Virus record (IMG/VR): IMGVR_UViG_3300027963_000104
Coordinates: 1 to 49,877 of that record
Source of the DNA: a virus
Direction: 5' to 3' (one strand)
DNA length: 49,877 nucleotides
Under the pieces are notes generated by a model, which was not told the origin of the DNA, made no database searches, and saw only the letters and a list, made by a program, of their open reading frames with translations. Position 1 is the stretch's first letter, and the number at the start of each line of letters is the position of its first letter. Both the position numbers and the translations under genes were made by a program. Positions 724 through 28,750 of the stretch are shown here, in pieces.

Positions 724-1031
724 GATACTAGCGAAGCGATTTAGATGCTAGTGTAGATATCGGGGGTGTGACCTAGTCAATGTCACCTTAATAAACTTAG
801 ACCTCAGTGGACAAGGTAGGAACGACCTCACTGACCTAACAAGGTTATAAAAAGTATCTCTAGACCTCACAAGTAATCTACGGATGGTAAAAATGATGAA
901 AATGTGACTGGCTTCCCGTAAGGACGTTGGTAAATGCTATAGAACACGGAGGTGACGGCATCCAAAACTAAATCTATTACAATGAGGGGAATGGGTGGTC
1001 TAATAGCAGTTCGATTCTGCTTACCCTCGCT
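724..1031 (+). ncRNA. Candidate structured non-coding RNA
   Basis: About 300 non-coding bases between promoter P2 and the first gene show many possible helices. ATACTAGC (725-732) pairs with GCTAGTGT (747-754). TCAGTG (804-809) pairs with CACTGA (829-834). GTCACC (782-787) can pair with GGTGAC (950-955), and GGATG (881-885) with CATCC (959-963). TTAGACC (797-803) is complementary to GGTCTAA (997-1003). The 3' part ends in a tRNA-like acceptor/T-arm: GAGGG (984-988) faces CCCTC (1024-1028) around AGCAG-TTCGATT-CTGCT. The GACCTCA block occurs three times. Large phage RNAs such as GOLLD and ROOL are known near phage tRNAs, but I cannot match this one to either from memory. Function is unknown, and the exact ends are inferred from the promoter and the last helix. 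Confidence 0.45.
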
Positions 1032-1058: not shown

Positions 1059-1379
1059 ATGCAAAATTTACTTAGCAAATTAGACGGAATTAACTTTACT
1101 AGTTACAATGACAAAAAACTTACTTCAGACGATGGTTTTGCAGTGAGTTATAGTGTTAATCTTAATGAAACTAGTGGTATATGCGATTGCATATTCCAAG
1201 TGGTAGTAAGAGTAACTTACAATGATGCATTGGTAACGCATTATGGATGTGTTACTATCGAAGAAACCAATGAATTTGGTAAATGGTTTCTATTGAATAA
1301 AAACAAAGCATACAATAATGAATATGCTAAAAAAAGACAATTCGAGGACATTGGTAAGACAATCTTTAATAGATTGTAA
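1059..1379 (+). CDS. Hypothetical protein, 106 aa
   Basis: First gene after the structured RNA, starting behind the leader AATTAAACTAAACAACT. I do not recognise the family. The protein is soluble, with no signal peptide or membrane segment, and its middle is rich in beta-type residues (about 45-80). It ends just before a GGGAA/TTCCC hairpin (1397-1420), which could attenuate or process the message before the next gene. Its first position suggests an early-expressed host-takeover or regulatory protein, but this is inference from place only. Confidence 0.75.
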   Translation: MQNLLSKLDGINFTSYNDKKLTSDDGFAVSYSVNLNETSGICDCIFQVVVRVTYNDALVTHYGCVTIEETNEFGKWFLLNKNKAYNNEYAKKRQFEDIGKTIFNRL

Positions 1380-9151: not shown

Positions 9152-9391
9152 ATGCAAACGACAACACAAGTAATATTCGAAAACTGGAAGAACTTATCAA
9201 AATTAGAGTTTGATGAGTATATGCTAAACCAAGAGAAAACACTATTGCGAGAAGAAAAAGAAATGATTAAGGATGCGTGGATAGATGGCTGGGAATCATA
9301 TGACCTTGATGAAAGGCTAGAAATAAAAATGTCAATGTTTTCTGCTGAAAGATATTATTTACTCACATTCGAAAGTAATGATTTGCAATAG
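9152..9391 (+). CDS. Acidic helical protein, 79 aa
   Basis: Starts 19 bp after the secreted-protein gene. Highly charged and helical (EKTLLREEKEMIKDAW, DLDERLEIKMSM), with no membrane span. Unrecognised. It is followed by an imperfect TATCTTT/AAAGATA inverted repeat (9392-9427) and then a strong double hairpin, so it ends a transcript. Confidence 0.6.
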   Translation: MQTTTQVIFENWKNLSKLEFDEYMLNQEKTLLREEKEMIKDAWIDGWESYDLDERLEIKMSMFSAERYYLLTFESNDLQ

Positions 9392-10095: not shown

Positions 10096-10168
10096 TGATA
10101 AGGCTATTATAAAATTTAATGGTGGTAATTTTGCGAAAAGAAATATTTATTATAACTTCATATTATGA
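10088..10168 (+). pseudogene. Truncated first part of the zinc-finger gene
   Basis: The frame MSNDKAIIKFNGGNFA followed by unrelated residues ends at the start of the GIY-YIG gene (shared ATGA). Its first 16 residues match the beginning of the intact gene at 10931 (MNNGYKAIVKFNNSNLA), and the two DNA stretches also align. It looks like the 5' remnant left when the endonuclease entered this gene, with the full gene restored downstream. An alternative is an ancestral gene duplication flanking the endonuclease. Confidence 0.6.
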
Positions 10169-10938
10169 AAGATATAATAATATACACATTAATTGACCCA
10201 AAAGATAACCAAGTTAGATATATTGGCAAAACTAATAATTTGAAACAAAGATTATATAGTCATATAAATAAATCAAAATCTGGATTCAATTCTCCAATTC
10301 ATTGTTGGATAAGAAAACTATTAGATTTAAATTTAAAACCTAGTATATCTATTCAAGAAATTTGTAATCAAGATAATTGGGAAGAAAGAGAAAAATATTG
10401 GATACAATATTATAGAGAAAAGTATGAAAATATTACCAATGTTTCAGATGGTGGAATAACTCCCTTAAAAAATCCTGATTATCAAAAAATAGTGTATTCT
10501 AAAAAAACATTTAAAGAAGTATATCAATATAATTTAAATGGGGAATACATTAAATCCCATAAAAATGCAATGCAGGCTTCTAAAAATTTAAATATAAAAA
10601 GACATGGTATAGAAAGCTGTTTAAAAGAAAAAGGTTATAGCTCTGGAGGTTTCTTTTGGAGTTATATAAAAAAAGATGTTATTGAAATACCTCAAAAAAA
10701 AGTAAATTTAGGAAGATTTGAAAAAGGATTAATCCCAAAAAATAAAGGCAAAAAAGCATCCAAAGAGCATAGAAATAAACTTTCATTAAAGAAACAAAAA
10801 AAAGTTATTCATATAGAAACTGGTGAAATTTACAATTCTTTGATGGAGGTTTCTAAAAAAAACAATATACCTTATGGAACATTAACTAATCAATTTTTCC
10901 GTAAATTAAAAACTCTTAAATTTAAATATTATGAATAA
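10165..10938 (+). CDS. GIY-YIG homing endonuclease, NUMOD type
   Basis: 257-residue endonuclease. GIY-YIG domain at 1-90: IYTLIDP, RYIGKTNNLKQRLYSH (GxT and the conserved Arg present) and a later EREKYWIQYY with the catalytic-type Glu. A NUMOD1-like repeat follows (VYQYNLNGEYIKSHKNAMQA), then a NUMOD3-like stretch (NKGKKASKEHRNKLS) and a second NUMOD1-like repeat near the end (VIHIETGEIYNSLMEVSKK). Such enzymes cut DNA at homing sites and spread their own gene. The gene is more A-rich than its neighbours, overlaps both flanking frames (4 bp and 8 bp), and lies between two copies of a gene start, all signs of recent insertion. Confidence 0.85.
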   Translation: MKDIIIYTLIDPKDNQVRYIGKTNNLKQRLYSHINKSKSGFNSPIHCWIRKLLDLNLKPSISIQEICNQDNWEEREKYWIQYYREKYENITNVSDGGITPLKNPDYQKIVYSKKTFKEVYQYNLNGEYIKSHKNAMQASKNLNIKRHGIESCLKEKGYSSGGFFWSYIKKDVIEIPQKKVNLGRFEKGLIPKNKGKKASKEHRNKLSLKKQKKVIHIETGEIYNSLMEVSKKNNIPYGTLTNQFFRKLKTLKFKYYE

Positions 10939-25891: not shown

Positions 25892-28217
25892 TTGCTATTT
25901 GTTGTTTCAATATAGATGACTGACCAGTTATTTGAGATGAATTTTGTTTTGCATTACTTGTATCATTAGATACTTGTAATTTGGTTTGGTTATTAGCCAT
26001 TGCAATTCTCTCAGCAGATTCTATTCTCATTCTTTCCTTTTCTAATTCTCCTTGAATTCTCATTTGTTCTTTCTGCAATTGGAATTCTGCTTCCATTTGG
26101 AATCTTTGAGCTTCTGCTTGTTGTGCTATTTGGGCAGCCTGCATATTCCCTTCCTGTTGAGCTTGTATCTCTTGCATTCTTTGCTCTGCTTGCCTTTCTT
26201 TTTCCTTTTTAACTCTGTATGCCCAAATCATTTGAGCTTCTTTTACATTTTTTGTATTTACAAGAAGTACAGCATCAGATGTATTTAATAACCCATTAGC
26301 AATATCTTGTTGCATCATTTGCATTAACCATGCTTTTTGGTCTTGAGTAGTACGTTTTTCTAATTCAATTCCATAATCTCTTGTTGATATGCTTGGGGAA
26401 ATTTCCATAAATGTTAATGTACCAGAATTCAACGCTGGAGCATACCCACTTATCCCCCCATATTTTAAACCTTGTTGTGTTCTACACAATAAACCCTCTG
26501 CAAGTCTTAATAATATATTTTCTTCTGCAAACGCCAATGGATATAGTGCTTCATTTGTACTTTGTTGACCACTTTCGTATCCAGGCACAAGTGTTTTTGA
26601 TGATGCTTGACCAAGTGTGACATCATTATATCCTGTAATTCTTTCTATAGCAGATAATGTGCTTACTAAGTCATTATAAAACATTGATAGTTCACTAGCT
26701 GCTGTATTTTCTATGGGAATTACTGGTCTCCAGTTTGCACTTTGAGGAGTTCCACCATCTGTATCACTTCTTCCCAACAACACCCCTGTATCAAAAAACA
26801 TTTGCAATAAATCTTGAGGGCTCATGTCTTGTCCACCCTTAGTCATTGCTACTTTTTCTAAAGCAGATAAATCTATCCACCATCCTGAAGGGACTGCTCT
26901 ATTCTTAAAGTTCTGTATCTTCAACATTGTTAGTTGATAATCATCAACAAAAGGGATTAATCTTTCCATCATCCCTTGAGCCTTCATCTGATAAAAATTA
27001 TAAGCATAAAACGTATAAGACAATTTTGTCTTAGCTTTATTTTTTAATTCGTTTTCTCTTTTTTGGTCATAGCACATACCAAAGTCGTATACCTTGTCTG
27101 TCCCTATAATCCATTTACATTTATATACGTACTGTATTTTTTTTCTTGTATACTTTTCTGACTTCTTACCTCTTGAAAAATCTGCTTTTCTGAAATCAGG
27201 ATTACCTTGCTCATCTACTGCATCACGATAAACTCTATCATTGTACGTATAGAATTCAATATCAAGTACCTTGCACTTGAATTTATCATATGGCTTCATC
27301 CAACCAGTTCCCAAACCTAACAATCTAGGATTACCAAATTGACCTGCTATTGTTGATGCGAATTGTGTTAAATCATCTTCATTAAACATTATATTACCTT
27401 CGTCATCCTTAACAGTAGCTAATTCAATTAGAGGAACATCTATGATTTCCCCAGCATGAACTATATTAGAAAAATCCCCATTCTTATCAAATGATGTTAT
27501 TACACACTCAGGGTCTACTACTCTAAAACATGGTTTATTGTCATCTCCTAACCAATCCTTTACTCCTGCTACCCCTAAATCAAATAAATCTTCATATATT
27601 TTTCTTCTTTTTGTTTTATAATCATTTTGATACAATGCAAGTTGAATTGCCATTTCAGCATCTTTACTCCTGTTAAACTGCTCTCCCATTTCCATTCTCA
27701 TTTTTAATTCTTCTATGTCAATAGGTTCGCCTGGTCTTGGAGCTATTATTGGATGATTTTTAATTTCTGGCATTTGTTCCTGTGCAGCTTCTTGCATCAT
27801 TAATCTAGCTAAGATATCAGCATAGTATTCACTCATCTCTGTTTTTGCTAATTGGTCTACGGGAGTTGCTGTTATATTATAATCAGTTGCCATTAATCTT
27901 GATATAGCCTTATCTCTATACCCAGATACAATTGCTCTAATGCTCCAGTCCAAACTTAACCAAGTATTGTTAGTAGTTTCATTTACCCCTAGCCATTTTT
28001 TATATTGCGAATTTGGCTGCTTCCCTAACGCATATAATCTAAACTTAGAGTAGTCACCTCCATTACCAGAGAATATACCTTTAGGATACACAAATTGCCA
28101 ATCGTAATATGCTGCCTGCGCATATTCTCTACAAAAATCTGCTCCCTTTTTTGCAGGGTCTATATCATGATTCGGATATGGGAATTGTCCTCCACTTGTT
28201 ATTTGCTGGTATTGCAT
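25872..28217 (-). CDS. Portal protein
   Basis: 781 residues. Motif-like stretches include WLSLDWSIRAIVSGYRDKAISRLM (a region near 80-110), then LFDLGVAGVKDW and a C-terminal Gln/Glu/Met-rich coiled coil (EKERQAEQRMQEIQAQQEGN-type, about 680-760), which matches the tail of long portals. It lies between terminase and scaffold/capsid genes, the classical portal position, and has the expected size for podovirus-like Bacteroidota phages. It forms the 12-mer gate for DNA. Its first codons also encode the end of the HNH endonuclease gene. Confidence 0.8.
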   Translation of the reverse strand: MQYQQITSGGQFPYPNHDIDPAKKGADFCREYAQAAYYDWQFVYPKGIFSGNGGDYSKFRLYALGKQPNSQYKKWLGVNETTNNTWLSLDWSIRAIVSGYRDKAISRLMATDYNITATPVDQLAKTEMSEYYADILARLMMQEAAQEQMPEIKNHPIIAPRPGEPIDIEELKMRMEMGEQFNRSKDAEMAIQLALYQNDYKTKRRKIYEDLFDLGVAGVKDWLGDDNKPCFRVVDPECVITSFDKNGDFSNIVHAGEIIDVPLIELATVKDDEGNIMFNEDDLTQFASTIAGQFGNPRLLGLGTGWMKPYDKFKCKVLDIEFYTYNDRVYRDAVDEQGNPDFRKADFSRGKKSEKYTRKKIQYVYKCKWIIGTDKVYDFGMCYDQKRENELKNKAKTKLSYTFYAYNFYQMKAQGMMERLIPFVDDYQLTMLKIQNFKNRAVPSGWWIDLSALEKVAMTKGGQDMSPQDLLQMFFDTGVLLGRSDTDGGTPQSANWRPVIPIENTAASELSMFYNDLVSTLSAIERITGYNDVTLGQASSKTLVPGYESGQQSTNEALYPLAFAEENILLRLAEGLLCRTQQGLKYGGISGYAPALNSGTLTFMEISPSISTRDYGIELEKRTTQDQKAWLMQMMQQDIANGLLNTSDAVLLVNTKNVKEAQMIWAYRVKKEKERQAEQRMQEIQAQQEGNMQAAQIAQQAEAQRFQMEAEFQLQKEQMRIQGELEKERMRIESAERIAMANNQTKLQVSNDTSNAKQNSSQITGQSSILKQQIANEKRNK

Positions 28218-28750
28218 TTTATCTTTGTTTTATTTATTATTTTATATGCTGATGTTCTATTTATATTTAATTTTTTATAACAATAATAAATAGAATTGCC
28301 TTGATTGTACAAATCAATTAATTCTTGTATTTGCTTATCAGTATATTTTGAATTTGGATTAGATTCGCCATTTCTTTTTATACCTAATTTTTCCATAGCG
28401 TGTATCATATTGTATCTTTTATCACACCATTCTAAATTAAACAATCTATTATCTTTTTTATCGCCATTTATATGGTTAACAATATTATGGTTTTGTTTTT
28501 TAGTAAGAAAAGATTCTGCCACTAACCTATGTACATATTTTCTTATTTTTTTATTACCATTTCTTAGAACAACAACAGGATACCCTACATTATCAATACC
28601 TATATATATATTTTTCTCTCTAACCCCATGTATGTTTAATCTTTCATTTTCTTTATTTTGTGTATAAGTAAATATAGATTTAACATTACCAAAATTACTT
28701 ACCATATATCTGTTTTCGTATCCAATTACATCTTTCCAGATTTCTTTCAT
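28199..28750 (-). CDS. HNH homing endonuclease, NUMOD4 type
   Basis: 183 residues. NUMOD4 motif at the start (WKDVIGYENRYMVSNFGNVK), then the HNH core: VHRLVAESFL, NIVNHINGDKKDNRLFNLEW (His-Asn-His-type), then a C-terminal helix-turn-helix (DLYNQGNSIYYCYKKLNI). It is a free-standing nicking/cutting enzyme that spreads to relatives. It sits between terminase and portal genes and overlaps the portal start by 19 bp, so its last residues (KCNTSK) are read from the portal start codons. No GGGAA motif occurs in the gene, unlike its surroundings. Confidence 0.85.
   Translation of the reverse strand: MKEIWKDVIGYENRYMVSNFGNVKSIFTYTQNKENERLNIHGVREKNIYIGIDNVGYPVVVLRNGNKKIRKYVHRLVAESFLTKKQNHNIVNHINGDKKDNRLFNLEWCDKRYNMIHAMEKLGIKRNGESNPNSKYTDKQIQELIDLYNQGNSIYYCYKKLNINRTSAYKIINKTKIKCNTSK

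Follow-up and report, generated by a model that had tools for sequence, protein, structure and literature searches.

The window analysed here, a virus record of 49,877 bases with an overall G+C content of 32.5%, carries between a promoter and the first early gene about 300 non-coding bases that end in a tRNA-like structure, which raises the question of what such a leader might do in front of the early genes. The virus likely has a Bacteroidetes host, because its terminase is closest to those of Flavobacterium, Cellulophaga, Tenacibaculum and Maribacter phages (less than 30% identity among the matches listed). No similarity of the window to known phages was found at the DNA level. Its nearest relative among the compared records, G001 (98% in DUF932), ends short of the leader region, and the terminase of another relative, G006, is 77% identical to that of the window. 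Searches for close viral relatives, by exact patterns from the leader RNA and through first-gene proteins, found none.

The leader of the early operon

The operon is preceded by tandem promoter-like motifs identified on the plus strand by pattern scan, namely P1 (567–595, TTGCGA-N16-TACTTTT) and P2 (689–716, TTGCGA-N15-TACTTTT), with the boxes of the latter located at 689–694 and 710–716 and its predicted start at approximately 721–725. An equivalent pair of the same type, TTGCGA-N(15–16)-TANNTTT, heads the early operon of G006, and the motif TTTTAACAA..TTGCGA..TANNTTT is common to the two genomes. P2 was not detected by a sigma-70 scan, as expected for a promoter of the Bacteroidetes type. 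Beyond G006, a search with the promoter-module pattern returned only three matches, none of them with a tRNA-like element. Downstream of P2, no plus-strand ORF of at least 40 aa is present within 724–1058, and the leader reads, with no terminator found on the way, into the first early gene (1059–1379, plus strand), which encodes a 106-aa protein without a known family, as judged from the ORF list and family searches. The original prediction of some 300 non-coding bases led by P2 and heading the left operon is thus supported. A terminator-like hairpin is located at 1396–1421, downstream of this gene.

The G+C content of the 308 bases at 724–1031 is 43%, compared with 28%–37% in the other non-coding stretches tested, and no other sampled 308-base stretch of the window reaches this value; because the region is G+C-rich within an AT-rich genome, its composition suggests a structured RNA. 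The bases just before the first start codon (1031–1058) have a G+C content of 14%. The global fold of 724–1031 is no more stable than those of shuffled sequences (z = +0.23 and +0.56 in two runs), and the G+C-rich body upstream of the tRNA-like element (724–983, plus strand), which is devoid of coding potential, yields z = 0.19. Hence, the large ornate RNA with multiple helices that had been envisaged is not apparent in the folding statistics, which equal those of shuffles (z 0.2–0.6). The 5′ part of the leader (724–754) exceeds shuffles in stability (z = −2.4) and is predicted to form a 9-bp hairpin (725–733/746–754, plus strand); a hairpin near the start is found in the G006 leader as well. 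Two other proposed interactions are not supported: the long-range pairing of 782–787 with 950–955 has a predicted probability of 0, and the complementarity of TTAGACC and GGTCTAA is at chance level, with three exact 7-base inverted pairs observed versus 2.5 expected. The heptamer GACCTCA does occur three times, as had been noticed (at 800, 824 and 863, spanning 800–869 on the plus strand), and on this strand of the window is found only there, with a comparable heptamer triplet arising in 68 of 2000 shuffles.

The leader, at ~300 nt and with a fold signal equal to that of shuffles, does not match GOLLD or ROOL, the large structured non-coding phage RNAs to which it had been tentatively linked. 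None of the Rfam families, including tRNA (RF00005), tmRNA, GOLLD and ROOL, matched the leader at gathering thresholds, and relaxation to E ≤ 5 over positions 1–1400 yielded nothing relevant, the sole match being a spurious snoRNA elsewhere. Consistently, ARAGORN at normal thresholds reported neither tRNA genes nor a tmRNA. An intron-split tRNA was rejected given that ARAGORN with introns allowed finds none, as was a permuted tmRNA, which was called only at the 50% threshold, alongside reverse-strand noise.

A minimal tRNA-like element with two acceptor partners

The 3′ end of the leader corresponds to a minimal tRNA-like element (984–1029, plus strand) identified by pattern scan. Its canonical T-arm, AGCAG-TTCGATT-CTGCT, occupies positions 1005–1021 (plus strand; pairing probability 0.85–1.0), and its local acceptor consists of GAGGGGA (984–990) paired with TACCCTC (1022–1028) over 7 bp with one mismatch. 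The acceptor strand and the T-arm are linked by a GG-containing loop (991–1004), and a discriminator-like G is found at 1029. The element has no anticodon arm, in agreement with the acceptor/T-arm with a TTCGATT loop anticipated from the sequence, and no D-stem. Neither a full CCA nor a 3′ RCC(A) motif is encoded, the respective bases being GCTA in the window and GCAT, TCAT and ACAA in the three other elements described below; CCA might still be attached to the transcript.

The 3′ acceptor strand has an alternative partner far upstream, which had not been noticed in the original prediction. GGGGGTG at 762–768, the best partner for 1022–1028 within 500 bases of the window, is predicted to pair with it (probability 0.63–1.0), as part of a 13-pair helix (762–768/1022–1028, plus 755–759/1031–1035 and 761/1029) which, with strands at 755–768 (plus strand) and 1022–1035, is the closing helix of the predicted fold. 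In the energy model this long-range acceptor comes out ~10 kcal/mol ahead of its local competitor, whose pairs are left with a probability of ~0; the long-range helix was equalled or bettered in 4 of 100 shuffles. In the other three elements the acceptors are local, and in two of these, the G006 copy at 280–322 and the G019 copy, the best partners are local, too.

Recurrence of the element in other phages

A scan prompted by the window T-arm covered 20 phage records (1.02 Mb) and looked for a canonical T-arm next to a local acceptor, the two being joined by a short loop. With the strict T-arm, GTTCGANTC, it produced four matches versus none in 60 dinucleotide shuffles, a comparison in which the strict filter was chosen after the four elements were known and only the three matches outside the window are independent. 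The elements are located at position 984 of the window, at 280 and 1082 of G006 and at 9381 of a further related phage, G019 (minus strand), in non-coding DNA in all cases; their anatomy, recurrence and excess over shuffles are direct observations. All four share the same design, with an acceptor/T stack of ~12 bp, a canonical T-loop, a GG-containing loop and no anticodon arm; GTTCGANTC is invariant, one mismatch is present in the window copy, and ATGG opens the loop right after the acceptor in the three elements that are closest to one another. Across the four sequences, pairing holds in 93.8% of cells, and both sides have changed at 9 of the 12 pairs, figures that are partly circular given that the search itself required pairing. 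One of the G006 elements ends the early leader behind the tandem promoters and is found in the predicted minimum-energy fold, and the other is located 4 bases past a stop codon, upstream of the next gene. When folded in isolation, the G006 1082 and G019 elements have minimum-energy structures that depart in detail from the tRNA-like form.

Models R1–R3 were built from alignments in which the loops of three of the four sequences were cut by 2–4 bases to align the stems. The model that omitted the window element (R2) ranked it first among the untrained matches (27.1 bits, E = 0.007 in 1.07 Mb), followed by a real tRNA at 20.7 bits, and a model without the G019 element recovered the latter at 23.3 bits (E = 0.019), barely above a real tRNA at 21.2 bits. 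A search of 50 further phage records gave one weak match (21.8 bits), and R3 none over 49. Judged by eye, the close relatives G008, G012 and G014 show a single promoter-like stretch with only a short 5′ UTR in place of the leader, and for this reason the leader is taken as an accessory insertion between the promoter and the first gene.

Several other non-coding regions came to attention during the comparison. In the relative G002, the early operon is preceded by a non-coding leader of 571 nt (L004:4350–4920), which is far more stable than shuffles (z −4.3) and has at its 3′ end an 8-bp helix resembling an acceptor and a hairpin resembling a T-arm; because this hairpin is non-canonical, the leader was not counted as a further element. 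The G019 element resides in a 776-nt non-coding region (L100:8832–9607, minus strand, z −3.4) for which neither an Rfam match nor similar phage DNA was found. In G006, a non-coding stretch following a small lipoprotein-like ORF (L053:1501–1690, z −2.8) has a G+C content of 42% versus 33% for the genome.

A putative RNA-processing signal and its alternatives

Rather than to the effector or scaffold acting in trans that had been considered, the position at the head of the operon and the tRNA mimicry point first to RNA processing. It is quite possible, although somewhat short of probable, that the leader ends in a minimal tRNA mimic which recruits RNase P and tRNase Z to part it from the early mRNA. 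A leader RNA of ~300 nt would start at P2 (and P1), and the mimic would offer what RNase P measures, a 12-bp acceptor/T-stem stack with a canonical T-loop, onto which the GG loop could dock, much like the D-loop of a tRNA. Of the host enzymes, RNase P would cleave at the 5′ boundary (near 983/984) and tRNase Z at the 3′ boundary (near 1029/1030); the cuts would separate the leader from an early mRNA whose first ~29 bases, unstructured and AT-rich, would precede the first start codon. Transcription, intracellular folding and cleavage, as well as whatever the leader might do once freed, are what we infer from the sequence features. It is unlikely, though conceivable, that the leader represents a new kind of phage early RNA that, once freed by the host enzymes, would be stabilised, perhaps by CCA tailing, and act in trans early in infection, or else that the local and long-range acceptors constitute a switch.

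The mascRNA of MALAT1/MEN-beta resembles the leader in that a longer non-coding RNA ends in a tRNA-like element; RNase P and tRNase Z act on this element, as is predicted for the phage one. The mascRNA carries a small anticodon arm; unlike this eukaryotic RNA, the phage element lacks both an anticodon arm and a D-stem and continues into phage mRNA. Minimal model substrates of RNase P, such as AT1, consist, like the four phage elements, of a 12-bp acceptor/T stack (mismatched in the window) and a T-loop, without an anticodon arm, but are synthetic and end in RCCA, whereas the phage elements occur naturally, with only the discriminator and C(A/T) encoded.

Processing is the most likely reading because minimal substrates suffice for RNase P, MALAT1 provides a precedent and one G006 element is intergenic. 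Hairpins composed of acceptor, T-stem and T-loop are enough for the bacterial enzyme (PMC11143913), for which the D-loop is dispensable (PMC4919913). The known substrates of bacterial RNase P include mRNAs as well as phage-induced RNAs, and in human cells RNase P and RNase Z process the tRNA-like end of MALAT1, the best-known RNA matured in this way (PMC4919922). The location of the G006 element between a stop codon and the next gene suits an mRNA-processing site within an operon. Against processing stand the preference of the energy model for the long-range acceptor, the mismatch in the local one, the lack of a full encoded CCA and the rarity of the element, with no convincing match in ~50 further phage records and no leader in G008, G012 and G014.

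A leader located directly between a promoter and the first gene, with no intervening terminator, could also be cis-acting, staying on the early mRNA and tuning its stability, its translation or, in the manner of put RNA, transcription elongation, with the T-arm as one stem among several. The 5′ hairpin that starts both the window and the G006 leaders and the structured G002 leader (z −4.3) are in line with this explanation, which is nevertheless rather unlikely, as it leaves unexplained the recurrence of a full tRNA-like acceptor with a canonical T-loop, including in the G006 intergenic spacer and the G019 non-coding region, and relatives manage without the leader. A decayed phage tRNA gene or the 3′ half of a host tRNA (an attP remnant), devoid of present function, is distinctly less plausible. 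In a search of 295 Bacteroidia genomes, model R1 gave matches of up to 33.1 bits, and 24 of the 26 loci examined coincided with ARAGORN tRNA genes, mostly tRNA-Pro, one with a tmRNA and one (L146) with neither; given that R1 matches the 3′ halves of real tRNA-Pro genes, a tRNA remnant can resemble the window element, and tRNA genes are present in some relatives. Yet, both acceptor strands are retained in four elements of differing sequence, and no integrase family was found among the larger ORFs tested. An origin from a host tRNA was rejected on the basis of the 24-base T-arm/acceptor end, which has one match with up to three mismatches in the 295 genomes, with a changed T-loop.

The least probable of the explanations is a tmRNA-like RNA, in which 762–768/1022–1028 would stack on the T-arm as an acceptor of 7 bp, with the body folded in between and the end perhaps CCA-tailed or even charged. 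The tRNA-like domain of tmRNA likewise combines an acceptor, a T-arm and a D-like loop without an anticodon arm, and a long-range acceptor with 7 + 5 bp tRNA geometry is possible in the window, where it belongs to the predicted minimum-energy fold and uses the best acceptor partner within 500 bases. Unlike in tmRNA, no tag reading frame was recognised and no CCA is encoded; neither ARAGORN at normal thresholds nor the Rfam tmRNA model at E ≤ 5 gave a match, an equally good helix formed in 4 of 100 shuffles, and the acceptors of the other elements are local.

If the processing reading is correct, Bacteroidetes phages use anticodon-less tRNA mimics as natural processing signals heading or inside early operons, providing a natural counterpart to the synthetic minimal substrates of RNase P. 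Annotation with ARAGORN and Rfam overlooks such elements.

The window further carries two homing-endonuclease-like genes, one with HNH_3/NUMOD4 domains adjoining the terminase gene (28199–28750, minus strand) and the other with GIY-YIG/NUMOD1 domains in the early region (10165–10938, plus strand).
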